Shown here in pieces: positions 47,724 through 64,000 of a DNA stretch of 64,000 nucleotides. How positions within the stretch are numbered: position 1 is the first letter of the stretch; each line of letters starts with the position of its first letter. This DNA is from Halosimplex halophilum. GTDB taxonomy: Archaea > Halobacteriota > Halobacteria > Halobacteriales > Haloarculaceae. The position numbers and the translations under genes were made by a program. The DNA is taken from NCBI RefSeq assembly GCF_004698125.1, contig NZ_ML214297.1, positions 558,001-622,000 on the forward strand. Direction: 5' to 3'. The notes below the pieces were generated by a model that was not told the DNA's origin, made no database searches, and saw only the letters and a list, made by a program, of their open reading frames with translations.

Positions 47724-48776
47724 TCACCCCTGCCGTTCGGCCGCCGACGGCTCCGGATCGGACGGGCGCTCGCCGTCCGCGCGGCCCGCGGTTCCCCCCG
47801 CGTCGCGCCCGGTCCCGGACTCGTCGACGCGAGCGGTCCCGCGCGCCCGGTCATCGCTCAGCCGCTCGGTGAGGTCCTCCAGCTGCCGGGTCTGTTCGCG
47901 GTTGACCGTGACGATCATGTCCGAGAGGACGCCAAACATCAGTAGCTGCACGCCGAAGATGATCGCCAGACCGCCGAGGAAGGCGATCACCTCGTGGGAG
48001 GTGTTGGCCGTGATCCACTCGACGGCGACGTAGGTACCGAGGACGAGGCCGACGACGAGGCTGACGGCGCCGACGCTCCCGAAGTAGAACAGCGGGTTGT
48101 TCGTCTTGGCCATCTTGTACAGCGTGAGGATGATGTCGGCGCCGTCGCGGAACGGGCGGAGGTTCGTCTCGGAGTCGTCCGGCCGGGCGCGGTAGCGGAT
48201 CGGGACGACCTCCGTGCGGACGTTGTGCTTGACGCACTCGACGGCCATCTCCGTCTCGATGCCGAAGTGATCCTCCGTCAGCGAGATGCGGTCGATGCTC
48301 TCGCGGGTCAGCGCCCGGTAGCCGCTGAGGATGTCCCCGTAGTCGCGGCCGTGGATGAGCGAGAACGCGCGGTTGATGACGCCGTTGCCGAACCGGTTGA
48401 GCCGCGTCATCGCGCCGTCCTCCATGTCGGCGAAGCGGTCGCCGATGACGTGGTCGGCCCGGCCCTCGAAGATCGGTTCGAGCATCGTCGCGGCGTCCTC
48501 GGCCCGGTAGGTCATGTCGCCGTCGAGCATGAGCACGACCGGGGCGTCGGTCCGCTCGAACCCCTCCTGGAGCGCCTGGCCCTTCCCCTTCGAGCCGCGC
48601 TGGGCGACGACGCGCGCGCCCTTCTCCTCGGCGATCGACGGGGTCCCGTCGGTCGACCCGCCGTCGATCACGAGGATGTCGTCGAACCCCTCGGCCGCGA
48701 ACGACTCGACGACCGGCCCGATCGTCTCGGACTCGTCCAGCGTGGGGATCAGCACGCAGACGTCGTCGTAATCCAT
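47724..48776 (-). CDS. aglJ: AglJ-type dolichol-phosphate hexosyltransferase
   Basis: A GT2-family glycosyltransferase. In Haloferax the homologue adds the first sugar of the N-linked S-layer glycan to dolichol phosphate. This 350-aa protein shows VLIPTLDESETIG, VIDGGSTDGT, the DxD region VLMLDGDMTYRAED (about residues 85-98) and GYRALTRESID. Two C-terminal membrane helices (about 232-258 and 270-296) and a disordered Asp/Arg-rich tail follow. It is divergent from the TrmB-family gene across a small Cys-motif gene and marks the left edge of the surface-glycan locus. Confidence 0.9.
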   Translation of the reverse strand: MDYDDVCVLIPTLDESETIGPVVESFAAEGFDDILVIDGGSTDGTPSIAEEKGARVVAQRGSKGKGQALQEGFERTDAPVVLMLDGDMTYRAEDAATMLEPIFEGRADHVIGDRFADMEDGAMTRLNRFGNGVINRAFSLIHGRDYGDILSGYRALTRESIDRISLTEDHFGIETEMAVECVKHNVRTEVVPIRYRARPDDSETNLRPFRDGADIILTLYKMAKTNNPLFYFGSVGAVSLVVGLVLGTYVAVEWITANTSHEVIAFLGGLAIIFGVQLLMFGVLSDMIVTVNREQTRQLEDLTERLSDDRARGTARVDESGTGRDAGGTAGRADGERPSDPEPSAAERQG

Positions 48777-49166: not shown

Positions 49167-50024
49167 ATGAGCGGCGACGGGAGCGCGGTCTTCGACCGGC
49201 TGGGGCTGACCGAGTACGAGGAGACGGCGCTGCGGGAGCTGCTCTCGCTCGGGAAGACGACGGCGCCGAACCTCGCCGAGGCGACGGACATCCCCAAGGC
49301 CCGCATCTACGGCGTCCTCGACTCGCTGTCGGACCGGGGGTTCGTCGAGGTGATCCCCGGCCGGCCCAAAGAGTACCAGCCCAAGCCGCCGGAGGCGATC
49401 CTCGACCGCGCCGTCGAGAACCGCCGCCAGGACTACGAGGAATTCTCCGCCGCCATCGACGACCTGCGCGAGGAGTTCCTCGCGGCGTTCCGGCCCCGCT
49501 ACGAGCGGGCGAGCGAGGACGTGACCCCGACCGAGGAGCTGTTCCACGTCGTCGACGTGGGCGAACCCAGCGAGCGCGAGACCCGACGGCTCTACCACGA
49601 GGCCGACGAGGAGGTCGACGTCGTCACCAAGAGCTTCGAGTACTTCGACTCGGTCGAGCCCGCCCTCGCCGACGCCCTGGAGCGGGGCGTCGAGGTCTCG
49701 GTCCTGATGCTCGTCCCCGACTTCCTCTCGACGGACCCGCGCGACGAGCCCGCCATCCAGCGGGAGATCGTCGAGCGGATCCGCGAGGACTACCCCGCCG
49801 TCGAGATCCGCTTCTCGACGGGCAAGCTCCCCTTCCGCGGCCACGTCGCCGACCCGAGCCCCGACTACGAGACCGGCTCGGCCATCCTCCTCGTCGAGGA
49901 GGAGGACGTGCCCAACCACATGCGCCAGGCCGCGATCACCGACAACGGCGCGTTCGTCGCCGGCCTGAAGCGGTACTTCGACCTCATCTGGGACCACGAG
50001 AGCGTCGCCGACCGCGAGGGGTGA
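49167..50024 (+). CDS. TrmB-family sugar-sensing transcription regulator (285 aa)
   Basis: An N-terminal winged-helix TrmB domain (residues 10-80: LGLTEYEETALRELLSLGKTTAPNLAEA, seen here in part, and PKARIYGVLDSL). A short coiled coil follows, then a C-terminal effector domain (about 130-280) with the PLD-like strand pattern EVSVLMLVPDFLS and GSAILLVEEEDVPN. TrmB proteins control sugar transport and glycolysis/gluconeogenesis genes, either repressing or activating according to site position. The location within a glycan locus suggests control of sugar supply or glycosylation. A consensus-like operator sits in its own upstream region. Confidence 0.88.
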   Translation: MSGDGSAVFDRLGLTEYEETALRELLSLGKTTAPNLAEATDIPKARIYGVLDSLSDRGFVEVIPGRPKEYQPKPPEAILDRAVENRRQDYEEFSAAIDDLREEFLAAFRPRYERASEDVTPTEELFHVVDVGEPSERETRRLYHEADEEVDVVTKSFEYFDSVEPALADALERGVEVSVLMLVPDFLSTDPRDEPAIQREIVERIREDYPAVEIRFSTGKLPFRGHVADPSPDYETGSAILLVEEEDVPNHMRQAAITDNGAFVAGLKRYFDLIWDHESVADREG

Positions 50025-50111: not shown

Positions 50112-51020
50112 ATGATCGCAGGCGCGTCAGTCGCCCTCGGTGTCCCCGTCTACGAGCGGACCGAGAAGCTCCGGAACCTCCTCGAATCGGCCGAGAACGT
50201 CCCCGTCGACACCGTCTACGTCGCCGACAACGGCCACACCGAGGAGCGGCGCGACCTCTACGACTCGGAGTTCGGGTTCGAGCTGGTCCCCATCGACGTG
50301 GAGTACGACTCCGGGCTGGGGAACTGCCGGCGGAGCATCGTCGACCGGCTCGACGAGGACTACCTGGTCATCGCCGACAGCGACCACACGATCCCGGGGA
50401 ACGTGGCGACGCTCGTCGACCAGCTGGAGGCCCGGCCCGAGTTCGGCGGCGTCTGCGGGCTCCTCTTCGAGCACGGCGGGCTCCGCGGGACCTGCCACGA
50501 CCTCTACGAGCGGGGGGACCTCCTCGTCCGGGACATCCGCGGCAAGGACGCGGAGCTCGTCGCCGGCCAGCCGCTCGTCGAGTTCGACTTCCTCCAGAAC
50601 GTCGCCGCCTTCCGCCGCGAGTGCGTCGAGGACTACGCCTGGGACCCCCAGCTCCAGCAGGGCAAACCCCACCTCGACTTCTACGTCGGCCACAAGCGCC
50701 GGACCGACTGGCGGTTCGGCTGCTGTCCGGCGGTGCAGTTCCCCCACTACCCCGGCGGCGGCAGCTCCTACACCGCCAACCGGAACAAGCGCGAACGGTT
50801 GATGGACGCCCGCGAGTACTTCCTCGACAAGTGGGGCTACCGCCAGATCGTCTACGGCCAGCTCGAGTGGCTGGAGACCCAGGACCGGCTCCCCTCGGAC
50901 GGCCGCGTCGCCGAACTGCTCGCGAAGCGACTGCTGACGCGGCTTCCCCTCGAACTGCAGGCGAAGGTGACCGACGCGCGGCAGTTCGTCCGCAAGCTCC
51001 AGGGCCGGCCGCCGCTGTAG
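50112..51020 (+). CDS. family 2-like glycosyltransferase (302 aa)
   Basis: GT-A fold. It opens VALGVPVYERTEKLRNLLES. A nucleotide-sugar strand VDTVYVADNGHTEE is followed by the DxD-type metal motif YLVIADSDHTIPGN (about residues 86-99). A later RTDWRFGCCPAVQFPHYPGG stretch could be the acceptor loop. It is soluble, with no membrane helix. The donor and acceptor are unknown. It follows the TrmB-family gene by 87 bp in the same direction and converges on the AlkP-family gene. Confidence 0.82.
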   Translation: MIAGASVALGVPVYERTEKLRNLLESAENVPVDTVYVADNGHTEERRDLYDSEFGFELVPIDVEYDSGLGNCRRSIVDRLDEDYLVIADSDHTIPGNVATLVDQLEARPEFGGVCGLLFEHGGLRGTCHDLYERGDLLVRDIRGKDAELVAGQPLVEFDFLQNVAAFRRECVEDYAWDPQLQQGKPHLDFYVGHKRRTDWRFGCCPAVQFPHYPGGGSSYTANRNKRERLMDAREYFLDKWGYRQIVYGQLEWLETQDRLPSDGRVAELLAKRLLTRLPLELQAKVTDARQFVRKLQGRPPL

Positions 51021-51079: not shown

Positions 51080-52420
51080 CTAGACGTAGCCGAGTTCCGA
51101 CAGCCGCTCCTCCACGTCGCTCGGGAGGTCCTGGCCCTCGCCGAGCGCCACGTCCCTGACGGCGAGCGTGTCGACGACCTCGTCGATGGCCGCCCGGACC
51201 GTCGCCTCGTCCGTGTCGCCCCACGTCCGGAAGCCGTCGAGCGTCTCGCAGCCGTAGGATCCGTCCTCGACGACCGCGCCGTTGAGCGGCGCGTCGTAGC
51301 GCTCGACGGTCGCCTCGTCGTAGCCCTGGTTCCGGAGGTGGGAGATCCGCTCGGAGCGGAGGCCGTGGCGCTCGGTGAGATACGAGCGCGACCCGCGGTC
51401 GGCGCGCAGGTCGCGGCCGCGCGCCTCGTCGTCCGCCACGCCGGCCGCCGACAGCACCGTCCGGTAGACGTCGAGCAGCCCCACCGTCTCCTCGCGGGTC
51501 TCGACGGCGTCCCCGCCATCCCAGACGGTCAGCGGCACGTGGGTCAGCTCGGGGTAGAGGCCGTGGTTGTGCCCCCAGACGTCGTCCTCGCCGAACATCT
51601 CCCCGTGGTCCGACAGCGTCACGACCACGTCGAACTCCTCGCGGAGCTCCGCGAAGATGTCCCGGTAGACGTCCGAGAGATACCGGACGCAGTCCTCGTA
51701 GGCCTGGCGCACGTCCGCCGGGTCTGCCTCGGGGCCGTCGCCGACCGTCTCCTCGAAACTGGGGTTGGCCGAGACGTCGACGGTCCGGTACTCCTCCGGG
51801 GCGTTGTACGGCCCGTGGGCCTCCATCAGGTTCACGAAGAGGAACTCGTCGTCGCCGAAGTCGGTCGACTCGACGAGGTCGAGGACCTCGCTGGCGCCGT
51901 CGTCCTCGCCGGCGATGGAGGCGATGCCCAGGTCGCGGGCCTTCATCCTGACGCCGAACTTCAGCGACTCGACGGTGTCGACGTCGTCGGCGAAACAGCG
52001 CCGGACCGCCCTGAGGAACCGCGTCGGTCCCTCGCCGCGCGTCTCGGAGATGAACTCCGCCCAGTCGACGATGTCGGGGTCGCGCCGGCGGCCCCGCCAG
52101 CTGTGGTGGAACTCGTCGAAGCCGCGGGTGAACTGGAAGGCGTCCGCGATGTTGGCGTTGGCGCTGAACCCGCGGGTCGTGTAGCCGGCCCGCGAGAGGT
52201 GCTCCGCGAGGACGGGCTTCTCGCAGTCGAGCGCCGTGGTCTTGGCGTAGACGCCGAGCTCGCTCGAGTACAGCCCGCCGAACAGCGTCGCGTGGACCGG
52301 GACGGTCCACCCGCCGGGCGACCACGCGTTCTCGTATCGCGCGCCCGGCAGCCAGTCGAAGTGCTCGTCGAACGAGTCCTTCCGCAGCGTGTCCATCACC
52401 ACCAGTGCGATGTTCGTCAT
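51080..52420 (-). CDS. alkaline-phosphatase-superfamily protein (sulfatase-like), Thr nucleophile
   Basis: A 446-aa soluble hydrolase or transferase. The metal ligands start at LVVMDTLRKDSF. The nucleophile region reads WTVPVHATLFGG, so the sulfatase CxPxR is TxPxH here. The second metal motif is TLSDHGEMFGED. Thr is the usual nucleophile of phosphoethanolamine and phosphoglycerol transferases, so a sulfate ester substrate is doubtful. It ends RLSELGYV. The start lies one base after the stop of the upstream AlkP-family gene (TGACATG), so the two are co-transcribed. Confidence 0.8.
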   Translation of the reverse strand: MTNIALVVMDTLRKDSFDEHFDWLPGARYENAWSPGGWTVPVHATLFGGLYSSELGVYAKTTALDCEKPVLAEHLSRAGYTTRGFSANANIADAFQFTRGFDEFHHSWRGRRRDPDIVDWAEFISETRGEGPTRFLRAVRRCFADDVDTVESLKFGVRMKARDLGIASIAGEDDGASEVLDLVESTDFGDDEFLFVNLMEAHGPYNAPEEYRTVDVSANPSFEETVGDGPEADPADVRQAYEDCVRYLSDVYRDIFAELREEFDVVVTLSDHGEMFGEDDVWGHNHGLYPELTHVPLTVWDGGDAVETREETVGLLDVYRTVLSAAGVADDEARGRDLRADRGSRSYLTERHGLRSERISHLRNQGYDEATVERYDAPLNGAVVEDGSYGCETLDGFRTWGDTDEATVRAAIDEVVDTLAVRDVALGEGQDLPSDVEERLSELGYV

Positions 52421-52421
52421 G

Positions 52422-53408
52422 TCACATGTACCCGAGGTCTTCCAGCTGCTCTTTCACGCGGTCCCCGCCGACGCCGCCGCCCTCGCCGGCCGCCGGCCGG
52501 TGGGTCGGCGTCCCCGAGTGGTCGGTCCCGTCGAGTTCCGCGTCGATGGCCGCCCGCACGTCCGTGACGCTCTCGATCGACTCGACGAGCGACCCGTCGG
52601 TCGCGGCGACCATCGCCTCGTGGGTGTGGACGCCGTCCTGCAGGCCGTGGTCGCTGACCAGCAGGAGTTCGTCGTCGTCCCCGAGGTCCGCGCGGAGCTC
52701 GCCGACGAACTCGTCGAGTTCGTCGTAGGCGGCCCGCTGCAGTTCGGGGCGGTCGTAGGTCACGTGGCCGATCAGGTCGAGGCCGCTGGTGTAGGCGAAG
52801 ACGAGCTCGTGGCGGCCGCCGCGGTAGGCCCGCCGCGCCCGGGCGACCCGTATCATCGCCATCTCCATGCACTGCTCGTAGAACGTCTCGGGGTCCGAGG
52901 AGGTGTGGCCGCCGGTCGCCTCGGGGTCGCGCTCGAACAGGTCCCCCAGGCTCCGCCGGAGGGCGTGTTCGCGGTCCTCGCTGTCCGGGTCGACCACGTA
53001 GTTCGGGACGCCGATCGGCTCCGCCTCGCGCCCGTCGAAGACGGTGGTGAGGCCGTTGTCGGCGTAGTAGGTGGCCGGCGTCCGGAAGGCGTCGGTGTCG
53101 GTGTTGGTCAGCAGCCAGGCGCCGAGGCGGGTCTGCAGCGAGTCGGGCAGCAGGTAGTCGGCGACCGCGCTGCCGAACTCCAGCACCGGGTTGCCCCACG
53201 CCACGCCGTCGTCGCCGAGTTCGAGCCCGTGCTCCGACGGGGGCAACCCCGTGATGATCGTCGGCCAGAGTTCGTGCGTGCTCGGCTCGCCCGCGTGGCT
53301 GTCGATCGTCCCGATCGCGCCGTGGGCCGCCAGGGTGAGGTTCGGGTGGGCGTCGGCGTCGACCAGGTCCGGGTCGAGCGCGTCCACGCCGAGCACGACC
53401 AGCGTCAT
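52422..53408 (-). CDS. AlkP-superfamily phosphodiesterase/pyrophosphatase-like protein (328 aa)
   Basis: Resembles the nucleotide pyrophosphatase/phosphodiesterase branch. VVLGVDALDPDLVDAD supplies the first Asp. GEPSTHELWPTIITGLPPSEHG (about residues 40-60) carries the likely Thr nucleophile. LVSDHGLQDGVHTHEAMVA gives the Asp/His metal ligands. No signal peptide is present. It ends EQLEDLGYM, the same tail style as the sulfatase-like neighbours. It is the first gene of a two-gene leftward operon, divergent from the next AlkP gene. Confidence 0.8.
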   Translation of the reverse strand: MTLVVLGVDALDPDLVDADAHPNLTLAAHGAIGTIDSHAGEPSTHELWPTIITGLPPSEHGLELGDDGVAWGNPVLEFGSAVADYLLPDSLQTRLGAWLLTNTDTDAFRTPATYYADNGLTTVFDGREAEPIGVPNYVVDPDSEDREHALRRSLGDLFERDPEATGGHTSSDPETFYEQCMEMAMIRVARARRAYRGGRHELVFAYTSGLDLIGHVTYDRPELQRAAYDELDEFVGELRADLGDDDELLLVSDHGLQDGVHTHEAMVAATDGSLVESIESVTDVRAAIDAELDGTDHSGTPTHRPAAGEGGGVGGDRVKEQLEDLGYM

Positions 53409-53591
53409 CTACCGTCCCGGAGTCCGCCGTCGCTCAAGTATCTTGTCGTTTTCCCCACCGTGGCCCGCTCTCGTCGGTTTCCCGCCGCGGCGCTCTCGTC
53501 GGTCTCCGGCTGTAGCTCCCCTCCCCCGCGCTCGCCGGTCGACCGCGAGCGACCCGTTAGACATTACTGCACCGCCGAACTCAGGGCGGAC

Positions 53592-54989
53592 ATGGCGCGG
53601 AACGTCGTCCTCGTGGTCCTCGACTCCGTCCGGAAAGACTACTTCGACGAGCACGCCCCCCGGCTGGCCGACGCGGCGGACGTGTCCTTCGAACACTGCC
53701 GCGCGGCGAGCAACTGGAGCCCCTCCAGCCACGGCGCCATCTTCACCGGCGAGCTCCCGCACGTCTCGGGGCTGCACAGCCACGACCCCAGCTACGACGA
53801 CATCCCCATCGAGGACACGCTGTTCGACGCGTTCCGCGACCACTACCGCTTCGCCGTCAGCAGCAACCTCTTCGTCGCCCGGCCGTACGGGTTCGACGAG
53901 TACTTCGACGAGTTCACCAGCGTCTCGCGCCACGCCGTCTTCGCCGAGGGCGAGGAGATCGACTCGTTCCTCCACGACGTCGACGCCGATGGGGTCCGCC
54001 GCTACTACGAGTTCCTCAGGCAGGCGCTGGGCCACGACGAGACCGTCAGGAGCATCGCCAACGGGCTGATGCTCAAGACCAACGACTACCTGGAGGGCGT
54101 GCCCGTCCCGCGGCTGTGGGACTACGGCACCCGGACGCAGCTCTCCCACGCGGCCGACCTCGCGACGGCCGGTCGCGAACCCTTCTTCGGCTTCATCAAC
54201 CTGATGGAGACGCACAACCCCCACGCGAACAACGTCTTCTACCGGGCCGAGGACGTGCCGAACGACTGGTGGTCCGACAAGCACCGGACGGTGCCGTTCA
54301 ACAACCGCCTCCTGGAGGACCCCGACGGCTACGACGACCACGTCCAGCACTACCGCGACACCTACGCCGCGTCGATCGACTACGTCGACCGCAAGCTCGT
54401 CCCGTTCGTCGAGCGGCTCCGGCGGGAGACCGAGGAAGAGACGACGGTCGTCGTGACCGCCGACCACGGCGAGAACCTCTGCTATCCCGACGACGACGGC
54501 ATGCTGGGCCACATCGGCAACGTCACCGAGTCGCTGCTGCACGTGCCGCTGCTCGTGTTCAACGCCCCCGAGTCCGTCCGCGAGCCCGACGACACCTACT
54601 TCTCGCACCTCGACCTGCGGACCCTCCTGGCGGGGCTCGCCGACGACGAACTGCCGACGACCTACAGGGACCGGGTCCCCGCCGAGGTCGTCGGCGGCGC
54701 GCCGCCCGACCACGTCGAGAACTACGACTACTGGGACCGGATGATCCGCGCGGTCTACGACGGCGACCGCAAGTACGTCTGGGACTCGTTCGGCGAGCGG
54801 TCGGTCTACCGCGTCGACCGCGACCGCCCCTGCCGCCAGGAGGAGGTCGACGAGCCCTTCGACGAGAGCGTCGAGGAGCTGTTCGAGGTCCCGCTCGCCG
54901 AGTTCAAGAGCCGGTTCGGCGACGCCCAGGAGAAAGACTGGGGCGACGACATCCCCGAGGACCGGCTGAAGCGGCTCGGCTACCTCTGA
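53592..54989 (+). CDS. AlkP-superfamily protein (sulfatase-like), Ser at nucleophile position
   Basis: A 465-aa protein. VLVVLDSVRKDYF gives the first metal Asp. The nucleophile region reads SNWSPSSHGAIFTGELP, with Ser where sulfatases have Cys/Ser but without the following xPxR pattern. The DHGE motif is in VVTADHGENLCYPDDD. The C-terminal part has MIRAVYDGDRKYVWD and ends DRLKRLGYL. It is probably a phosphodiesterase or phosphotransferase of surface material (inference). ATG 53592 is the first codon compatible with family homology. Confidence 0.78.
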   Translation: MARNVVLVVLDSVRKDYFDEHAPRLADAADVSFEHCRAASNWSPSSHGAIFTGELPHVSGLHSHDPSYDDIPIEDTLFDAFRDHYRFAVSSNLFVARPYGFDEYFDEFTSVSRHAVFAEGEEIDSFLHDVDADGVRRYYEFLRQALGHDETVRSIANGLMLKTNDYLEGVPVPRLWDYGTRTQLSHAADLATAGREPFFGFINLMETHNPHANNVFYRAEDVPNDWWSDKHRTVPFNNRLLEDPDGYDDHVQHYRDTYAASIDYVDRKLVPFVERLRRETEEETTVVVTADHGENLCYPDDDGMLGHIGNVTESLLHVPLLVFNAPESVREPDDTYFSHLDLRTLLAGLADDELPTTYRDRVPAEVVGGAPPDHVENYDYWDRMIRAVYDGDRKYVWDSFGERSVYRVDRDRPCRQEEVDEPFDESVEELFEVPLAEFKSRFGDAQEKDWGDDIPEDRLKRLGYL

Positions 54990-55096
54990 GTCGACGCCGC
55001 GGACCCGAGCCGGCGGTTCGGGCCCCCGGCCGGACTCCGGCCCCACCGGTCCGGAACCGCGGGACCGGGACCCGTCGGCCGGAACGATCCGCATCC

Positions 55097-55102
55097 ATTA
55101 AG
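55097..55102 (+). promoter_or_regulatory. TATA-like box of the AlkP gene at 55.1 kb
   Basis: attaag (within ccattaagttagg) is 24-29 bp before the ATG at 55126, indicating an independent leaderless promoter. Confidence 0.55.
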
Positions 55103-55125
55103 TTAGGATATCGCTGACATCTGGT

Positions 55126-56457
55126 ATGCCCTCCCTGTTGATCACGGTCGACGCCGTCAGGCAGTCCCATCTCGGACAGTTCGGCTACCACCGCGACACG
55201 ATGCCCGCGCTGGACCGGCTGGCGGCCGACGGCACGACCTTCCCCAACGCCTTCTCGAACGCGCCGTACACGCGGATGTCGATCCCCTCCTTTCACACGT
55301 CGCAGTACCGCGGTCACGAGCTCATCGGCGAGTCGCCCACGATCGCCGAAGCCCTCAGCGACGCGGGCGCCCACACCGCCTGCCTCGGGACGCTGACGGG
55401 GTTCAAGGACAACGAGGGCGCGCTCGTGTTCGACGAGTACGCCGACCTCGGCCGCGACGAGTTCTACGAGCAGGCCAACCACTCGCCCGTCCTCGACGCC
55501 GCGAAGCGGGCCGTCGAGCCGGTGGTCAGCGTCTCGCGGCCGCTCTACGAGGCCGCCGAGTCCGTCCACGACCGCCTGTTCTCGACCCACGAGTTCAAGG
55601 GCTACACCAGCGCCGAGCGGATGACCGACGAGGTGATCGACTGGCTCCGGGAGGCCCCCGACGACTTCTTCCTGTGGGTCCACTACATGGAGGGCCACCG
55701 CCCCTACGGCGTCCACGACCCCGACCCGGAGTACCTCGACGAGCAGCCCGACGACGAGACGATCATGGAGCTCATGGAGACGGCCGGCACCGCGCCCGAC
55801 GACGTGACGATGGGCCAGAACCGCCTCATCGAGGACCTCTACGACTCCGATCTCCGGTACTGCTCCGAGCACCTCGACCGGCTGTTCGACTTCATGCAGT
55901 CGGCCGGCCTTTGGGCGGAGACGGACATCTACTTCACCTCCGACCACGGCGAGGAGTTCTACGACCACGGGATGTACTTCCACCGGAACCTCCCGTACGA
56001 CGAGCTGATCAACGTCCCGCTGTTCACCAAGCTCGCGTCCCGACCGGGCGGGGAGACGATAGCGGCGGACCGCGAGCTGCTCGATCTGGCCCCGACGATC
56101 TGCCGGGAGCACGGCCTCGACACGGACGACCTGCCGTTCCTCGGGACCAACCTCTTCGAGGGGGGCGACAGGAAGGTGATCACGACGGGGTCGGCGGCCA
56201 TCGACGACAGGGCCGTGGTCGGCGGCCGCTGGGACGGCTGGAAGTACATCCGCGACGGCGACCGCCGGCACCTGTTCGACCTGGAGGCCGACCCCGACGA
56301 GCGGGCCGACCTCGCGGACGACCGTCCGGGCGTCGTCGACGAGTTCGAGGCCGAGATCCCCGACCCGCTGTTCCGGACGGAGTCGCTGGGCACCCGCGAC
56401 CCCGACGACGCCGCCGACGAGGAACAGCTGGCGGCGCTCGGCTACATGGAAGTCTGA
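55126..56457 (+). CDS. AlkP-superfamily protein (sulfatase-like), Thr nucleophile
   Basis: A 443-aa protein. LITVDAVRQSHLGQFGY provides the first metal residue. The nucleophile loop is SNAPYTRMSIPSFHTSQY, with Thr replacing the sulfatase Cys and no Arg at the +4 position. The metal-binding His/Asp are in TSDHGEEFYDHGMYFHRN. Its C-terminal region has YIRDGDRRHLFDLEADPDE, a common sulfatase-family subdomain, and ends QLAALGYMEV. It has its own promoter. It converges with the flippase gene. Confidence 0.8.
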   Translation: MPSLLITVDAVRQSHLGQFGYHRDTMPALDRLAADGTTFPNAFSNAPYTRMSIPSFHTSQYRGHELIGESPTIAEALSDAGAHTACLGTLTGFKDNEGALVFDEYADLGRDEFYEQANHSPVLDAAKRAVEPVVSVSRPLYEAAESVHDRLFSTHEFKGYTSAERMTDEVIDWLREAPDDFFLWVHYMEGHRPYGVHDPDPEYLDEQPDDETIMELMETAGTAPDDVTMGQNRLIEDLYDSDLRYCSEHLDRLFDFMQSAGLWAETDIYFTSDHGEEFYDHGMYFHRNLPYDELINVPLFTKLASRPGGETIAADRELLDLAPTICREHGLDTDDLPFLGTNLFEGGDRKVITTGSAAIDDRAVVGGRWDGWKYIRDGDRRHLFDLEADPDERADLADDRPGVVDEFEAEIPDPLFRTESLGTRDPDDAADEEQLAALGYMEV

Positions 56458-56508
56458 CCCCGTCTTTCCGACGAACATCGACCCGCTCCGCCTCGCTCTG
56501 GACGCCCG

Positions 56509-57915
56509 CTACACGCCAGCGAGCCCCCGGACCTTCGCCCGGATCCGGCCGGAGACGGCGATCAGGACCGCGGTGTAGACCGCCGCGCCGGCCAGCACCA
56601 GCCCGATCGTCAGGTAGTTCCCGGTCGGGACGGCCGGGCGGACCGAAACGACGGCCGCGACCATCACGAGGGCCGCGACGGCCTGGCGGGCGATCTCGAG
56701 GACCGGCACGTCCGGTCGCCCGACGAGCCGGGACAGCGCGACGTAGGAGTACACGAGGCCGACGCCGGCCGAGAGAACGGTCGCGACGGCGGCGCCGACC
56801 CAGCCGTAGAGGTAGATGAGCGCGACGTTCAACAGGAGGTTCGAGCCGGCGAACGCGAGGTTGACGCGGAAGGCCACGTCGGGGCGGTCGATCGCGTTGA
56901 CGACGTTGAGGAACTGCTCGCCGTAGGCCGCGAGCATCCGCGCGAGGACGAGCAATACCAGGATCGGCGCGCCCTGGGTGAACTCGGGCCGGTAGATGCG
57001 CAGGACGCGCTCGCCGAGCGCCCACGCGCCGAACAGCCCGGGGATGACGAAGACGCCGGTGAACACCAGCCCCTCGTTGAGGTAGTGGTGGATGCGGTCG
57101 TGCTCGTCGTCGACGCCGAGCTCGCTCATCTCCGGGAAGAGCGTGCTCTTGACCGAGACGGCGACGAGCGCGAACACCGACGCGAGGCTCCAGGCCACCT
57201 CGTAGACGCCGATCAGCGTCGACCCGACCGCGAACGCGGCGAGGACGACCGTGTCCATCCAGCTGAACGCGCGGGTCTTCAGCGTGCTGAGCCACGTGTA
57301 GCGGGCGAAGTCGAAGAGGCTCCGCGCCGCCCGCCGGGTCGGCCGCCCCGGCGAGAGGTCGACGAAGACGACGGCGGCCAGCGTCCCGACGAACAGGGCG
57401 GCGGCGTGGCCGGCGACGAGCGCGGTGACGCCGTAGCCGGCCGCGACCGCCGCGATCTGCAGGACCGAGCGGACGATCCGCTCCAGGGACTTCGTGCCCG
57501 CGGCCCTGGCCACCTTCTTCTCGCCGTTGAGGACGGCTCTGACGCCGATGAACGCGACGTTGCCGACGACCAGCAGCGCGACCACGTCGCCGACCTCGGC
57601 GCCGACGAGCCAGTTGACCAGCGGCGTGCCGAGGACGACGGCGACCCCGAGGACGACGGCGATCCCGGCCAGCATCACGAGGCCCGTCGCGAGGTACTCC
57701 CCCCGGTCGCTCCCCTCGCTCAGCCGCTTCGTGAGCGAGTCGCCGACTGCCGTCGCGGGGATGTTCAGCCAGAAGGCGACGGCCACGGCCGGCGCGTAGA
57801 GGCCGATGAGGTCCGCGCCGCCGAGCCGGGCGATCGCGAACGTCGCCGCGAACCCGGCGAGCGAGACGACGACGTGGGAGGCGAAGTGAAAGAGGGTTGT
57901 CCGGCCGAGCCGCAT
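56509..57915 (-). CDS. polysaccharide/lipid-linked oligosaccharide flippase (MATE/Wzx-like)
   Basis: A 468-aa integral membrane protein with 12-14 hydrophobic segments and the family opening LFHFASHVVVSLAGFAATFAIARLGG (seen here in part), typical of RfbX/Wzx-type exporters. The segment AYGEQFLNVVNAIDRPD lies near residues 325-340. Such proteins move dolichol- or polyprenol-linked glycans across the membrane; AglR has this role in Haloferax. In this locus it is likely to export the unit built by the flanking glycosyltransferases. ATG 57915 is chosen, since the upstream frame is basic and non-membranous. Confidence 0.88.
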   Translation of the reverse strand: MRLGRTTLFHFASHVVVSLAGFAATFAIARLGGADLIGLYAPAVAVAFWLNIPATAVGDSLTKRLSEGSDRGEYLATGLVMLAGIAVVLGVAVVLGTPLVNWLVGAEVGDVVALLVVGNVAFIGVRAVLNGEKKVARAAGTKSLERIVRSVLQIAAVAAGYGVTALVAGHAAALFVGTLAAVVFVDLSPGRPTRRAARSLFDFARYTWLSTLKTRAFSWMDTVVLAAFAVGSTLIGVYEVAWSLASVFALVAVSVKSTLFPEMSELGVDDEHDRIHHYLNEGLVFTGVFVIPGLFGAWALGERVLRIYRPEFTQGAPILVLLVLARMLAAYGEQFLNVVNAIDRPDVAFRVNLAFAGSNLLLNVALIYLYGWVGAAVATVLSAGVGLVYSYVALSRLVGRPDVPVLEIARQAVAALVMVAAVVSVRPAVPTGNYLTIGLVLAGAAVYTAVLIAVSGRIRAKVRGLAGV

Positions 57916-58106
57916 CGTTACCCGCCGACCCCGTCGACCCGGCGCGTGCTTGAACGACGATCGCTCATGGGCCCACTGTGACCGGCGGGGTTCAGAACCT
58001 TTCTGATACGCGCCCGCACCGGACCGCCCGACGCCCGTGGCGGCTCCGGACTCGCGGCGCCCGGGAGATAGCAATCTTTTCGACACCGACCGAACAACCG
58101 GGGCGT

Positions 58107-59927
58107 ATGTCACGGGTACGGGAGCGTCTGGGCCGCCCGCTCGGTCGGGTCCGGGCCGACCTCGGGGCGGACCCGTATCTCCCCTATCTGCTCGCGCTCG
58201 CCGCGGTGACCTGCGGGTTCGGCGTCTGGTTCCGGCTGCCGAACTTCGCCGCGCCCGACGAGTACTCCCGGCTCATCCAGCCGATGAAGGTCGCCGGCCG
58301 GTTCGTCGCGGACCCGGGCTTCGAGTCGATCCGGGCCGGCGTCACCGACGGCCGGGCGCTCGGCGCGACGTTCTACCTCTACGCGGCCACCCTGGCGCCG
58401 GTGTTCCTGGTCGTCGTCGCCACCGGGCGGCTCGGGGAGTTCGCGACGCTCGGGACGATCCAGTCGCGCTGGGAGCTGTGGCACGCCGCGCCGGCGTGGT
58501 TCTGGACGCTCGCCGTCCTGCTCGGCCGCCTCGTCAGCGTCGCGCTCGGCGTCGGCTGCGTCTACCTCACCTACCGCCTCGGGACCGAGCTCCGCGACCG
58601 CTTCGCCGGCCGCGTCGCGGCGCTCTCGCTCGCGCTCTCGGTCGGCTTCCTCGCCCAGACCCACATGATCGGCGAGGACATCCCGATGATCTTCCTGCTG
58701 CTCGCGACGGTCCTGCTGGCCAACCGGTACGTCGCCGTGGGGCGCGCGGCCGACTTCCTGCTCGGGTCGTTCGCCGGCGGGCTCGCCGTCGCGTTCAAGC
58801 TCTCCGGGGGCGTCGCCGCGGTGGTCCTCGGCGTGGCGCTGCTCGTCCGCGCGGCCCGCAGCGACGACCCGGTCGGCGAACTGGCCCGGCCGCGGGTCGT
58901 GCTGGGCGGGCTCGCGGTCGGCGCCGCGACCATCTACGTCGCGATCCCGAGCGTGCTGCTCGGCGGCCCACTGGAGCTGTTCGCGCGGGCGACCGGGTCG
59001 ATCGCCTCGAAGACCGGCAAGTCCGGCGGGCTCACCGCCCCGATCTCCTACTGGCTGGTCCGCCAGTACGTCCGCGGGCTCGGCGTCCCGCTGTTCGTCG
59101 CCGCCCTCGCCGGCGCGGGCGCGACCGCCCGTCACCTCGTCACCCGCCGTTCCCGGATCGAACCGCTCTACTGGCTGCTTGTCACCTCGGTAGCGGTCTT
59201 CCTGCTGGTCTACTCGCGGTGGGAGTTCGTCCGTCTGCGCCACGTCGTCCCCACGTTCCCGCCGCTGCTCGTCCTGTTCGGCGCGGCCGCCAGCCGCTGG
59301 TGGGACGTCGACCGGCCGAAGGTCCGGACCGGCGTCCGCGCGGCGCTCGCGCTCGTTCTCGTGTCGAGCGCGCTGATCGCCGGCGTCGCCGGCGCCGGCT
59401 ACCTGACGGAGCCGCGTGACGGCGCGACGGAGTGGATCGCGACGAACACGAACGCCGACGACCGCGTCGAGGTCTACGAGAACTCCATCGCCGACGTGGG
59501 GACGCCCCACGGCCGGGAGACGGTCCACTTCGACTACCGGGAGGAGCGGGCCACGTCCAGCTCCTCGCTCGTCCTGAACGAGTCGCGGTTCACCGAGTGG
59601 ATGACGAGCGGGCCCGAGCGCGAACCGGCCTACATCGAACTCACCGCGAACGAGCTGTCCTACGTCGACCCGACGGACACGGACTACCACCGCTACCCCG
59701 AGCGGCGGGCCTACGTCCGGGGCCTGCTCGCCGGCGAGTACGACTACCGCGTGGTCGCGACGTTCGGCCACTGGGAGCGGACCGAGACGCTCCGGGACGA
59801 CTTCATGCGGGCCGTGTTCCGCCCCGAGGTCGAGGGCCAGGAGCGATACGTGGTGATCCTGGCCCACGAGGAGCGGACCGGGACGATGGCGGACGCCGGC
59901 GGTCGCGAGGTCCGTTCGGGCGGGTGA
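58107..59927 (+). CDS. GT-C membrane glycosyltransferase (ArnT/family 39-like), 606 aa
   Basis: About ten membrane helices over residues 20-430, followed by a soluble extracytoplasmic domain (about 435-600). The early luminal loop has the acidic pair FAAPDEYSRLI (about residues 45-55), expected for a polyprenyl-phosphate-sugar-using GT-C. The second conserved stretch is SVGFLAQTHMIGEDIPM. It would transfer a sugar from a dolichol-phosphate donor outside the membrane. The acceptor is unknown. It is divergent from the flippase and upstream of two AlkP genes. Confidence 0.82.
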   Translation: MSRVRERLGRPLGRVRADLGADPYLPYLLALAAVTCGFGVWFRLPNFAAPDEYSRLIQPMKVAGRFVADPGFESIRAGVTDGRALGATFYLYAATLAPVFLVVVATGRLGEFATLGTIQSRWELWHAAPAWFWTLAVLLGRLVSVALGVGCVYLTYRLGTELRDRFAGRVAALSLALSVGFLAQTHMIGEDIPMIFLLLATVLLANRYVAVGRAADFLLGSFAGGLAVAFKLSGGVAAVVLGVALLVRAARSDDPVGELARPRVVLGGLAVGAATIYVAIPSVLLGGPLELFARATGSIASKTGKSGGLTAPISYWLVRQYVRGLGVPLFVAALAGAGATARHLVTRRSRIEPLYWLLVTSVAVFLLVYSRWEFVRLRHVVPTFPPLLVLFGAAASRWWDVDRPKVRTGVRAALALVLVSSALIAGVAGAGYLTEPRDGATEWIATNTNADDRVEVYENSIADVGTPHGRETVHFDYREERATSSSSLVLNESRFTEWMTSGPEREPAYIELTANELSYVDPTDTDYHRYPERRAYVRGLLAGEYDYRVVATFGHWERTETLRDDFMRAVFRPEVEGQERYVVILAHEERTGTMADAGGREVRSGG

Positions 59928-60017
59928 CCACGAGGGAGAGCGGCTCTGCGTCGAGCGGTTGTGCGTTCGAACAGTCGTGGCCTCGCTCGCGCCGCGGGCG
60001 GGACCGGGTTCCGAAGG

Positions 60018-60025
60018 GATTGTAT
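60018..60025 (+). promoter_or_regulatory. TATA-like box before the AlkP pair at 60.1 kb
   Basis: tgtatagg lies about 33-40 bp before ATG 60058, suggesting a separate promoter for the AlkP pair with a very short leader. Confidence 0.4.
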
Positions 60026-60057
60026 AGGTTCCCGGAAAATGACGGCACGAGCTTCGA

Positions 60058-61206
60058 ATGAGAGATGTCGTCCTCCTGACCGCGGACTCGGTCCGCCGCG
60101 ACTTCGTCGACGCGATGCCCTTCGTCGACGGCCACGACGTGCTGACGGGCGTGACCGCCGGCCACTACACCCGGCCCAGCCTCGCCGCCCTCCAGTCGTC
60201 GCGGCTGCGCGCCTCGGTCCAGTCCAGGGTCATCGGGCCCTCGCTGGCCGAGGTGCTCTCCGAGGCGGGCTACGAGACCATCGGGCTGGTCCCGACCGCC
60301 CAGGCCGACCCCGCCTTCGGCTTCGACGCCGGGTTCGACCACTACGACAACTACATGAGCGGCAGCGGCAACGCCGCGAAGAACCGCCGCAGCGGCCTCC
60401 GCGAGTTCCTCGGCTCGTTCGACATCGTCCGGCAGGTCTACCGCCGGGTCTACCCGATGGAGGCGAACATGGCCGACCTCCCGGCCGACGACGCGGTCGT
60501 CGACGAGGCCGTCGAGCGGTTCAACGACGCCGACGGCCCCCGGTTCCTCTGGGTCCACCAGATGGAGAGCCACCGCCCCTACGGCCGCGGCGACGACGCG
60601 ATCCCGGGGTCGGTCGACCGGAAGGCCGAGGCCAGCGGCGGCCGCCACTGGTTCGGCTCCTCGGAGGTCACGGACGCGGAACGTCGCACCATCCTCGACG
60701 CCTACCGGGACGCGCTCGGCCGCGTCGACGACCGGGTCGAGCGGGTGGTCGAGGGGATCGACAGCGAGGACCCGATCTTCGCCTTCGCGGCCGACCACGG
60801 CGACGAGTTCGGCGAGGAGGGGTACTACTACCACCAGGGCTACCGCCGCAGGGTCGCCGACCCGATCATCCGCGTCCCGGTCGTCCTCGACGGGGTCGAC
60901 ACCGTCGGCGACCGGTGTAGCCTGCTCGACATCGCGCCGACGCTCGCCGGCGCGGTCGGCGCCGAGGCGCCGGCCGCGTGGCAGGGCAACGACCTCGCGA
61001 AGACCGAGACGGGCGAGACGCTCACGGTCGCGCCGTGGCACGACAGCGCGACGGTCTGCTGGCAGGACTTCGACCGCAAGCTCGTCGCGCGCGACGCCGA
61101 CGTGTCGATCACCGACGACGAGGGCGAGGCGACGGTCGAACGGACCGACGTCTCGGAGGACGTGGAGGCGCAACTGCGCGACCTGGGCTACTCGGACGCG
61201 GGGTAG
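60058..61206 (+). CDS. AlkP-superfamily protein (sulfatase-like), Thr nucleophile
   Basis: A 382-aa protein. VVLLTADSVRRDFVD is the first metal strand. The nucleophile region GHYTRPSLAALQSSRL has Thr-x-Pro-Ser with no Arg. Metal ligands are in AFAADHGDEFGEEGYYYHQG. It ends AQLRDLGYSDAG. It is shorter than the other members, so it has a compact C-terminal subdomain. The next AlkP gene starts 2 bp after its stop, so the two proteins are probably made together. Confidence 0.8.
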   Translation: MRDVVLLTADSVRRDFVDAMPFVDGHDVLTGVTAGHYTRPSLAALQSSRLRASVQSRVIGPSLAEVLSEAGYETIGLVPTAQADPAFGFDAGFDHYDNYMSGSGNAAKNRRSGLREFLGSFDIVRQVYRRVYPMEANMADLPADDAVVDEAVERFNDADGPRFLWVHQMESHRPYGRGDDAIPGSVDRKAEASGGRHWFGSSEVTDAERRTILDAYRDALGRVDDRVERVVEGIDSEDPIFAFAADHGDEFGEEGYYYHQGYRRRVADPIIRVPVVLDGVDTVGDRCSLLDIAPTLAGAVGAEAPAAWQGNDLAKTETGETLTVAPWHDSATVCWQDFDRKLVARDADVSITDDEGEATVERTDVSEDVEAQLRDLGYSDAG

Positions 61207-61208
61207 CC

Positions 61209-62447
61209 ATGTCGCGGAAGAACCTCCTCCTCGTCACCGTCGACTGCCTCCGCGGCGACTTCGTCGGGACCGACCACGCCGACACGCCGTTCATCGACGG
61301 CCTCGTCGCCGACGGGACCGACTACCGCGAGATGTACGCCACGGCGACGACGACGACGCCCTGCGTCGCCAGCTACATGACCGGCACCTACTCCGAGCAC
61401 AACGGCGTCTACTCGCTGGAGGAGGCCCGCCTCGACGAGTCGGTCCCGACGCTCGCCGAGCACCTCTCGGCCGCCGGCTACGACACGACCGCGATGGTCA
61501 CGGGGCCCATCGTCGCCGACACCGGCCTCGACCGCGGCTTCGACGAGTACGCCTACCGCGACCGCAACGAGGAGCTCGTCGGCGACTGGTTCGACGAGGC
61601 CGTCGAGACGGTCGCGGGCCTGGAGGAGCCGTTCTTCTGTTACCTGCACCTCTGGGAGATCCACGACCCCGTCCGCGTCCCCGACGGCTACGATGACCCG
61701 GAGTACGGGCGCTACCCCTACGCGCGAACCCTCTCGGCGCTCGACCGCGCGCTCGGACGGTTCCACGACCACATCCCGGCCAACACCGTGACCGCCCTCC
61801 ACGGCGACCACGGCGAGGCCATCGCCTACCGCGACAGTTACCTGCACAAGCTGACGAAGTTCCTCCGGACCGGGCTCCGCTACGGGCTCGGACTCGACAC
61901 GCGCGCGCTCGAACGCCGCCTCAAGCGCCGGTTCGACCGCGACCCGCCGGTCCCCGACCACTTCATGGAGGACGGCCACGGCGAGAACGTCTTCGACTTC
62001 GTCTCGAACGTCCCGTTCGTCCTCTCCGGGCCCGGAGTCGAGGACGCCACCGTCGACGCGCAGGTCCGGCAGGTCGACGTGCTGCCGACGCTGCTCGACC
62101 TCCTCCGCGTCGAACCGACCGACGACCGGCCGATCGACGGCGAGTCGCTGCTGCCCCCCGAGTCGGTGAGCGACCGCGACGCCTACATCCGCGCCTGCGG
62201 GAAGTCGCTCGTCCGCGAGGCCAACTGGCAGCGCGCCGTCCGCGCGGAGGGCCACAAGTACGTCGAGTACGTCGACCGCGACTGGGAGCCCGAGCTGTAC
62301 GACCTCGACGCGGACCCGCTCGAACTCCACCCCGTCGAGGACGAACCCACCGCCTCCGACCTCCGGTCGCGGATCCCCGAGGAGGGCGTCCGCGACGGCG
62401 AACAGCTGGAGATCGACGGCCTCCTGAAGGACCTGGGCTACAAGTAG
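61209..62447 (+). CDS. AlkP-superfamily protein (sulfatase-like), Thr nucleophile
   Basis: A 412-aa protein. LLLVTVDCLRGDFVG is the first metal strand. The nucleophile loop TATTTTPCVASYMTGTYSEHNG has Thr-Thr-Pro-Cys-Val instead of Cys-x-Pro-x-Arg. Metal motif HGDHGEAIAYRDSYLHK follows, then FVSNVPFVLSGPGV and a C-terminal YVEYVDRDWEPELYDLDADP subdomain. It ends LLKDLGYK. It is tightly linked to the previous AlkP gene. ATG 61209 is the only start compatible with the spacing and homology. Confidence 0.8.
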   Translation: MSRKNLLLVTVDCLRGDFVGTDHADTPFIDGLVADGTDYREMYATATTTTPCVASYMTGTYSEHNGVYSLEEARLDESVPTLAEHLSAAGYDTTAMVTGPIVADTGLDRGFDEYAYRDRNEELVGDWFDEAVETVAGLEEPFFCYLHLWEIHDPVRVPDGYDDPEYGRYPYARTLSALDRALGRFHDHIPANTVTALHGDHGEAIAYRDSYLHKLTKFLRTGLRYGLGLDTRALERRLKRRFDRDPPVPDHFMEDGHGENVFDFVSNVPFVLSGPGVEDATVDAQVRQVDVLPTLLDLLRVEPTDDRPIDGESLLPPESVSDRDAYIRACGKSLVREANWQRAVRAEGHKYVEYVDRDWEPELYDLDADPLELHPVEDEPTASDLRSRIPEEGVRDGEQLEIDGLLKDLGYK

Positions 62448-62528: not shown

Positions 62529-63605
62529 TCACCGGATCCAGGTGACGAAGATCGTCCGCGCGAGCCCGACCGCGTAGCCGAGCTTCGGTTTCTTGGTCTC
62601 GCCGGCCTCCCGCTCGTGGATGGTCACCGGGACCTCGACGATGCGCAGGCCGTTCTTGCGGGACTCGATGATGAGCTCGGGCGCGGAGAACCGTTCCTCG
62701 GTGAGCGTGAGCTCGGCGAGCCGGGAGCCGCGGATGGCGCGGAAGCCGTTGGTGCAGTCGGTGATGTCGGTCTTGGCGAGGCGGTTGATCAGCCAGGTGA
62801 ACGTGCGGATGCCGCCCCGGCGGGTGATCGAGTTGCCGGAGTTGTCCTCGCCGCGGTACCGGGAGCCGAGCACGTAGTCGGCCTCGTCGTCGACGATGGG
62901 GGCGACGAGGTCGTCGAGCTGGTCGACGGGGTGCTGGCCGTCGGCGTCCATCGTGACGACGATGTCGGCGCCGTGGTCGCTGGCGATGTCGAAGCCGGTC
63001 TGGAGAGCGCCGCCCTGGCCCTGGTTGATCGGGTGTTCGACGACGATGGCGTCGTACTCCTCGGCGGCCCGCCGGGTGGCGTCGTCGGAGCCGTCGGAGA
63101 CGACGACCGCACGGACGAGGTGGTCGTGGATCCGGTCGGGCAGCGCCGCGAGGACGGTCCCGATCGTGTCGGCCTCGTTGTAGGCCGGGACGACGACGTA
63201 CAGCGTCCGCTCGTCGAGGTCCGCGTCCGGGTCGGCCTGCTGGACGGCCAGGCTCCGCGTGAGGTCGCCGATCGTCCGCTGGCTGGTGTTGACCTGCGAG
63301 ACGAGGTAGAAGATGAGCACGAGGAACGTGACGTTGGCGAAGATCTGGATGAGGATGAAGCGGCTCTCGAGGTTCAGGACGCCGGCGAGCGCGCCGTACA
63401 GCCCCGGCGCGAACGCGACGGTGAGCAGCCCGAGCGCGACCCCGAGGGCGATGGCGAGTTCCGCCCGCGAGAAGGTCGTGCGGTAGCGCTCGAACCCCCA
63501 CAGGAGGACGACGGCCGCTACCCCGGCGAACAGCAGGGTCAGCGCCTCGTTGCTCAACCCCGGGAGGGCTGCCAGGGGGGCGTCGGCGGACACCAGCGGC
63601 GACAT
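62529..63605 (-). CDS. DUF2304-GT2 fusion glycosyltransferase (358 aa)
   Basis: The N-terminal ~110 residues are a DUF2304 membrane domain with three hydrophobic segments (LTLLFAGVAAVVLLWGF, ELAIALGVALGLLTVAF, FILIQIFANVTFLVLIFYLV). They are joined to a dolichol-phosphate-mannose-synthase-like GT2 domain: VVVPAYNEADTIG, VVSDGSDDAT, the DxD in VVTMDADGQHP (about residues 221-231), SRYRGEDNSGN and CTNGFRAIRGSR. It is likely to make a polyprenyl-phosphate sugar, possibly the donor for the GT-C enzyme (inference). ATG 63605 precedes the first helix. Confidence 0.85.
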   Translation of the reverse strand: MSPLVSADAPLAALPGLSNEALTLLFAGVAAVVLLWGFERYRTTFSRAELAIALGVALGLLTVAFAPGLYGALAGVLNLESRFILIQIFANVTFLVLIFYLVSQVNTSQRTIGDLTRSLAVQQADPDADLDERTLYVVVPAYNEADTIGTVLAALPDRIHDHLVRAVVVSDGSDDATRRAAEEYDAIVVEHPINQGQGGALQTGFDIASDHGADIVVTMDADGQHPVDQLDDLVAPIVDDEADYVLGSRYRGEDNSGNSITRRGGIRTFTWLINRLAKTDITDCTNGFRAIRGSRLAELTLTEERFSAPELIIESRKNGLRIVEVPVTIHEREAGETKKPKLGYAVGLARTIFVTWIR

Positions 63606-63762: not shown

Positions 63763-64000
63763 ATGTCACAGCCACGCGCCGCGCTCTCCGTCGACCTCGA
63801 GTTCTTCACGCACCTGCCGGCCTACCGCGGGGCCCGCGGGGTCACCGACCGCCCGGCGGTCGGGCTCGGCGGCGTCACGGCGCTGCTCGACGCCCTCGCC
63901 GACGCCGACGCGGCGGGCACGTTCTTCACCGTCGGCGACATCGCCGACGACCACCCGCGGGTCGTCGAGCGCGTCGCCGACGAGGGCCACGAGGTCGCCT
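63763..64000 (+). CDS. polysaccharide deacetylase family protein (partial, runs off the window)
   Basis: The first 79 codons of a NodB-homology protein. ALSVDLEFFTHLP includes the first metal Asp region, and AGTFFTVGDIADDHPRVVERVADEGHEVA is the typical strand-helix before the His motif. It would remove N- or O-acetyl groups from a glycan. Its position at the end of the glycosyltransferase/AlkP cluster supports a glycan modification role. The 3' end lies outside the window. It is divergent from the DUF2304-GT2 gene. Confidence 0.82.
   Translation, partial: MSQPRAALSVDLEFFTHLPAYRGARGVTDRPAVGLGGVTALLDALADADAAGTFFTVGDIADDHPRVVERVADEGHEVA

Follow-up and report, generated by a model that had tools for sequence, protein, structure and literature searches.

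In a study published in 2025, the aglB-anchored cluster of Halobacterium salinarum was examined by deleting three of its AlkP-superfamily genes (PMC11980604). Agl30 (VNG1056C), found in the membrane fraction, sulfates iduronic acid at position three of the H. salinarum N-glycan, and Agl31 (VNG1057C), which is soluble and cytosolic by fractionation, sulfates the terminal glucuronic acid (sugar 4). Sulfate was lost from the glycan upon deletion of agl30 and agl31, and the expression of both proteins in Haloferax volcanii led to sulfate on a pentasaccharide that is normally free of it. For VNG1063H, no role was found by deletion; the study is silent on the active site and the sulfate donor of Agl30 and Agl31 (PMC11980604). 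In Hfx. volcanii, Agl7 is required for sulfating the dolichol phosphate (Dol-P) hexose of the low-salt glycan (PMC3871713). Of the AlkP proteins of the Ser/Thr type, Agl30 and Agl31 are the only ones we found in the literature whose role in an archaeal N-glycosylation cluster has been tested. Here, we describe six AlkP-superfamily genes (A to F) in a 64,000-nucleotide stretch of the Halosimplex halophilum genome (contig NZ_ML214297.1, C1 in the coordinates below, positions 558,001 to 622,000; hereafter the window). Five of the encoded proteins (A, C, D, E, and F) are, in our judgment, rather probably cytosolic AlkP-fold sulfotransferases of the Agl30/Agl31 kind. Sulfotransfer was shown by others for the related proteins; for the five themselves, we infer it by analogy.

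AglJ is located on one side of the six genes and AglB beyond the window end on the other. The cluster thus occupies the interior of an AglJ–AglB N-glycosylation locus, which is composed as follows.

47724–48776, minus strand: AglJ, the Dol-P hexose transferase that initiates assembly of the N-glycan and borders the locus on the left (TIGR04182, 448.9 bits, cut-off 325).
49167–50024, plus strand: TrmB-like transcriptional regulator by sequence reading, also beside AglJ in three same-genus genomes (82–94% identity).
50112–51020, plus strand: GT2-type glycosyltransferase (PF00535, 5.7e-6).
51080–52420, minus strand: AlkP protein A (TVPVH), putative glycan sulfotransferase (PF00884, 2.8e-23; nucleophile motif).
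52422–53408, minus strand: AlkP protein B, NPP type (PF01663, 3.1e-13; Thr and second metal motif D-x-x-G-H).
53592–54989, plus strand: AlkP protein C (SPSSH; PF00884, 5.5e-18).
55126–56457, plus strand: AlkP protein D (TRMSIP; PF00884, 2.8e-38).
56509–57915, minus strand: flippase of the MurJ/Wzx type, presumed flipper of the lipid-linked glycan (PF03023, 1.9e-9).
58107–59927, plus strand: GT-C (PMT-like) glycosyltransferase (PF13231, 4.7e-7).
60058–61206, plus strand: AlkP protein E (TRPSL; PF00884, 1.4e-21).
61209–62447, plus strand: AlkP protein F (TTPCV; PF00884, 2.8e-26).
62529–63605, minus strand: GT2 protein with DUF2304, PpgS-like polyprenyl phosphate sugar synthase, not AglJ (PF00535, 1.5e-27; PF10066, 4.2e-9).
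63763–64000, plus strand: polysaccharide deacetylase, only its start inside the window (PF01522, 1.6e-21; runs beyond the window end, L114:1763-2626).
C1:623815-625362 (L114:3815-5362), just beyond the window end: seventh AlkP gene, PF01663 type (1.2e-32).
C1:629976-633134 (L114:9976-13134), 8 kb beyond the window end: AglB.

The initial annotation, made from the window sequence, had placed six AlkP-superfamily genes at 51080–62447 in a surface-glycan setting. Both points are borne out, with five PF00884 matches (5.5e-18 to 2.8e-38), one PF01663 match (3.1e-13), and the AglJ–AglB frame around them. AglJ had been counted among the genes of that interval; it does border the locus, but lies at 47724–48776 and thus outside the interval, and the protein at 62529–63605 is a different GT2 enzyme, whose best NCBIfam match (NF058614) scores below the cut-off. 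Five PF00884-type genes are found here within 11.4 kb, for which the chance expectation is about 3e-7 (13 such genes in the 4.47 Mb genome to which contig C1 belongs). A and B, separated by a gap of 1 bp, possibly form an operon.

To read the nucleophile motifs, the proteins were aligned with two canonical Cys sulfatases that the genome also encodes (ICTPSR and VCAPSR). At the sulfatase nucleophile position, A reads TVPVH, C SPSSH, D TRMSI, E TRPSL, and F TTPCV, in agreement with the initial reading, and the formylglycine motif C/S-x-P/A-x-R was found in none of the five PF00884 proteins of the window. The nucleophile is Thr in A, D (T49), E, and F and Ser in C (S43); the Thr assigned earlier to this place is thus correct for four proteins and wrong for C. 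Each of the five retains the N-terminal Asp in D-x-x-R, H-x-P, Asp-His-Gly, and a later His. The AlkP catalytic set is thus complete, and the assumption that the five are not formylglycine sulfatases is supported. The sixth protein, B, had been described as a phosphodiesterase type with a Thr, which is confirmed by its PF01663 match; in addition to Thr and DHG, it contains D-x-x-G-H as in two-metal phosphodiesterases. A formylglycine-generating enzyme (FGE) is encoded in the genome (PF03781 above cut-off) together with the two Cys sulfatases, and it would serve these two rather than A, C, D, E, and F. The FGE is absent from the H. salinarum genome G064 and from four Haloferax genomes, and the Hfx. 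volcanii control gave no match.

A Ser or Thr in place of the sulfatase Cys is widespread. Among the 129 distinct AlkP proteins collected for this analysis, 10 of which are Cys-type sulfatases, 113 have a Ser/Thr nucleophile without Arg at +4, and 105 of the 113 keep the full set of D-x-x-R, Ser/Thr, H-x-P, D-H, and one more His. By these alignments, Thr or Ser without C-x-P-x-R is the rule for AlkP proteins of haloarchaeal glycan loci. The Ser/Thr proteins also share a C-terminal LxxLGY motif, which was detected in 106 of the 113 and in all six window proteins including B, but in none of the 10 Cys-type sulfatases (Fisher p 1.3e-10 for Ser/Thr versus Cys type, the rows not being independent). 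The C-termini deduced from the cloning primers in PMC11980604 are HLEDLGYL for VNG1056C, LEELGYT for VNG1057C, and KELGYIE for VNG1063H. As LxxLGY is encoded by the primers of Agl30 and Agl31, the proven sulfotransferases fall into the Ser/Thr group that includes the window proteins. The primer-derived peptides of VNG1056C and VNG1057C are too short for clade placement; that of VNG1063H, VHYFQPH, is as in a clade of short AlkP proteins (~300 amino acids). The tail, encoded for instance at 51080–51100 in the window, is near-universal in Ser/Thr AlkP proteins and common even to the PF01663 type; a function in docking or assembly is a guess.

No hydrophobic or membrane segment was predicted from the sequences of A to F (maximum KD19 1.14), and their net negative charge ranges from 33 to 58. 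Such strong acidity without a hydrophobic segment fits cytosolic proteins of halophiles, and A to F are, by sequence, soluble and presumably cytosolic. In common with Agl30 and Agl31, the five PF00884 proteins belong to the AlkP superfamily, are encoded in an AglB-anchored cluster, and end in LxxLGY, and Agl31 is soluble like A to F; however, the H. salinarum cluster has two or three AlkP members, whereas five PF00884 proteins of several clades are present here. A further parallel is Agl7 of Hfx. volcanii, a haloarchaeal N-glycosylation protein needed for sulfate on a lipid-linked sugar, which we take to have an AlkP fold.

The structure prediction that the initial annotation had proposed for each active site was carried out for C and D. 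AlphaFold models were obtained from 10 (C) and 13 (D) sequences, with a predicted local distance difference test score (pLDDT) of 69 and a predicted template modeling score (pTM) of 0.78 for C and of 74 and 0.78 for D. The best fold matches of both are sulfatases. The leading chains for C include 6HHM (Z 27.1) and 5G2U (Z 27.0), the structures named as nearest solved folds of VNG1057C and VNG1056C, respectively (PMC11980604). For D, sulfatases reach Z 37.4, and LtaP (Z 31.5) and YejM (Z 31.4) follow close below among the best 50 matches. A common fold does not show function. The S1 formylglycine sulfatases resemble the window proteins in fold and give the top fold-comparison scores, and the NCBIfam models that match the five best include choline-sulfatase and arylsulfatase; the S1 sulfatases differ in that C/S-x-P-x-R is replaced in the window proteins and in that the sampled Cys-type proteins have no LxxLGY tail. 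In the tree, C is part of its own strong clade, D and a Haloferax homolog group next to E, and separate positions are taken by A and F. EptA, EptC, and OpgB of Escherichia coli fall elsewhere than the window proteins, on long, weakly placed branches. The rows labeled Agl30/Agl31 in the tree and the pairwise comparisons are AlkP genes of H. salinarum strain G064 and not the proven enzymes.

The AglJ–AglB frame is kept in the three same-genus genomes compared, and the inner genes vary. One of them (G400) has orthologs of A, B, C, E, and F with 74–88% identity and no D, the second (G209) combines B, C, and E with two further AlkP genes, and in the third (G280) a C-type and an E-type gene occur alongside two others of the superfamily; the E orthologs in the three are 50–84% identical. 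Six AlkP genes are located between AglB and AglJ in Haloferax gibbonsii and four in Haloferax sp. Q22, in whose locus an ortholog of A was found. Homologs of D (46–47% identity) are encoded in the AglB–AglJ loci of Haloferax gibbonsii and Haloferax prahovense, and the AglJ–AglB loci of Halobacterium species also contain several AlkP genes. The presence of several AlkP genes per locus in Haloferax, Halobacterium, and the same genus indicates a recurrent arrangement that is not peculiar to this genome. In a profile search, the C clade was detected in 92 of 392 haloarchaeal genomes. A paralog of F is located elsewhere in the genome (C1:2038498). The seventh AlkP protein carries the LxxLGY tail, adjoins an LPG_synthase_TM protein and the deacetylase, and has counterparts with 90–91% identity in two same-genus genomes. 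On a plasmid of Haladaptatus pallidirubidus, E, the GT2/DUF2304 gene, the deacetylase, LPG_synthase_TM, and the NPP-type gene lie together as they do between window position 58107 and C1:625362; no gene of this plasmid stretch is annotated as AglJ or AglB, and the genes from E to the NPP type therefore look like a separable module.

H. salinarum strain G064, assigned to the species by a bacteriorhodopsin match of 100%, has an 18 kb contig (C17) on which three AlkP genes lie with glycosyltransferases. Order, size, and a hydrophobic stretch suggested that these are Agl31, Agl30, and VNG1063H, but the assignment was rejected because the primers of PMC11980604 are absent there (no VNG1056, VNG1057, or VNG1063 match). 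The glycan loci seem to differ between H. salinarum strains. Orthologs of VNG1056C or VNG1057C were not found by primer match in the loci of several Halobacterium species or in 1.2 Mb of Halobacterium G072, and the examined 1.2 Mb of G072 also contained no AglB. On contig C1 of G072 (595204-597416), an F-type gene and a short AlkP gene (319 amino acids) overlap by 4 bp, with no AglB or AglJ match in the surrounding 400 kb. In the Halosimplex window, GC content ranges from 62 to 75%, and ARAGORN identified a tRNA-Leu (GAG) at 10575–10669 on the minus strand, inside the 3′ end of a same-strand open reading frame of 812 amino acids (10542–12980).

Adenosine 5′-phosphosulfate (APS) kinase (PF01583) was found in 32 and Sat-type ATP sulfurylase (PF01747) in 12 of the 392 genomes searched across the order. 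Neither is present in the window genome, H. salinarum G064 is not among the positives, and the Hfx. volcanii control gave no match to either family or to Sulfotransfer_3 (PF13469). Few haloarchaea have these classical enzymes, yet H. salinarum and Hfx. volcanii are established producers of sulfated glycans. Agl30 and Agl31 sulfate glycans in Hfx. volcanii even though this control matched none of the three families; if the assignment of the window proteins is right, the old question of which activated sulfate haloarchaea use would become testable. A permissive search in ten genomes, including G064 and four Haloferax genomes, returned only partial or weak P-loop matches. Sulfotransfer_3 was found in none of ten haloarchaeal genomes including the present one, a result limited to this one among the sulfotransferase families of Pfam. 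CysN was not detected above cut-off in nine genomes; matches of 280–295 bits, which are below the CysN cut-off, were taken as elongation factor 1-alpha. A CysD-like PP-loop protein of ~323 amino acids is encoded in the haloarchaeal genomes examined (L156:1216-2187 in G064, L158:874-1845 in the present genome, two tandem copies in Haloferax gibbonsii), with scores below the curated CysD cut-offs where checked, and is a candidate sulfate activator. Of the 32 APS-kinase genomes, 10 contain the C clade, against a background of 92 among all 392 genomes (Fisher p 0.28), and 82 of the 92 C-clade genomes have neither APS kinase nor Sat-type ATP sulfurylase. This absence of an association leaves the classical route via 3′-phosphoadenosine 5′-phosphosulfate (PAPS) unsupported. 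PAPS supplied by the classical APS kinase pathway is thus an improbable donor, and APS made by the CysD-like enzyme is a testable guess; non-homologous replacements of the sulfate-activation enzymes are possible despite the negative searches.

Several observations weigh against sulfotransfer by A, C, D, E, and F. The likeness to Agl30 and Agl31 is one of family, locus, and tail, direct kinship with any one window protein is putative, and the tail is no proof of sulfotransfer because VNG1063H, for which no sulfation role was detected, ends in LxxLGY as well. No cytosolic route to activated sulfate was identified in these genomes. The deep branches joining A, C, D/E, and F are unresolved in the tree, so that different functions among the five are possible, and T-x-x-S-I-P of D resembles T-x-x-S-V-P of EptA. 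The last point bears on the transfer of phosphoethanolamine, phosphoglycerol, or sugar-phosphate to the glycan or to lipids, which the initial annotation had derived from the Thr nucleophile. Four of the five have this Thr, as EptA, LtaS, and OpgB do, the NCBIfam EptA model matches residues 5–61 of D (5e-8), and LtaP and YejM are among the fold matches of D given above. However, choline-sulfatase (3.7e-18) and arylsulfatase (6.3e-18) outscore EptA on D in NCBIfam, and sulfatases outscore LtaP and YejM in the fold comparison. EptA/EptC, OpgB, and LtaS share with the window proteins the AlkP fold, the Thr nucleophile (A, D, E, and F), the Asp-His metal pair, H-x-P, and the later His, but EptA, LtaS, and OpgB are membrane-anchored by an N-terminal domain, with the catalytic domain outside the cytoplasm, whereas A to F are soluble and have no such domain. 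No phospho-donor gene was recognized in the part of the AglJ–AglB interval whose genes were examined, and sulfation is what the AlkP proteins tested from this context carry out (PMC11980604). Because Ser/Thr is general in this AlkP group (113 of 129), these residues cannot separate phospho- from sulfotransfer, and the derivation from Thr is not supported. By sequence, phosphotransfer would be possible chiefly for D; for the set as a whole, we consider it unlikely and the weaker reading compared with sulfotransfer.

It is still more improbable that the proteins are trimming enzymes, that is, cytosolic sulfatases or phosphodiesterases removing groups from lipid-linked glycans or nucleotide sugars in quality control or recycling. 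B and the seventh protein are of the NPP type (PF01663), B has Thr and D-x-x-G-H, and many AlkP enzymes are promiscuous hydrolases. However, the formylglycine motif is missing from all five PF00884 proteins in a genome that does encode FGE and two Cys sulfatases, and six or seven trimming enzymes would be odd beside a handful of glycosyltransferases. A variant that overlaps with the sulfotransferase reading assumes a mixed set, in which some of the five are sulfotransferases and others act on other groups or glycoconjugates, with E belonging to a separate lipid or polysaccharide module. The distribution of the five over four or five separate clades and the company of E on the Haladaptatus plasmid are in accordance with it, whereas all of them share the catalytic residues and the C-terminal tail; this variant is plausible, although we would not expect it to prevail.

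If A, C, D, E, and F are sulfotransferases, each might have its own target sugar or position in the lipid-linked glycan, which would be decorated on the cytosolic side. The decorated glycan would then be turned outward by the flippase and transferred to protein by AglB. The N-terminal Asp and the Asp-His pair may hold a metal that activates the Ser/Thr, and this residue would take the sulfuryl group from the donor and pass it on to the sugar hydroxyl, with H-x-P and the later His as putative acid/base or binding residues. B and the seventh protein would be NPP-like phosphodiesterases, perhaps cleaving a nucleotide by-product. Both share with the NPP/type I phosphodiesterases (PF01663) a match above the Pfam cut-off, and B keeps Thr, D-x-x-G-H, and DHG; they differ from this family in being haloarchaeal and in having the LxxLGY tail.

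The initial annotation had called a system of this kind largely undescribed. This is no longer the case since the sulfotransferase role of AlkP proteins was published in 2025 (PMC11980604), and the window proteins would be further members of this kind. A more tentative extension, which we regard as somewhat doubtful, is that the haloarchaeal AlkP-fold proteins may constitute a separate class of sulfotransferases with a Ser/Thr-metal site and APS or another non-PAPS donor, in which the AlkP set of a locus would write the sulfation pattern of the strain in the manner of combinatorial cassettes. If the assignment as sulfotransferases is right, most of the many genes annotated as "sulfatase-like hydrolase/transferase" in haloarchaeal glycan loci would encode enzymes that add sulfates instead of removing them, the reverse of what the annotation says.

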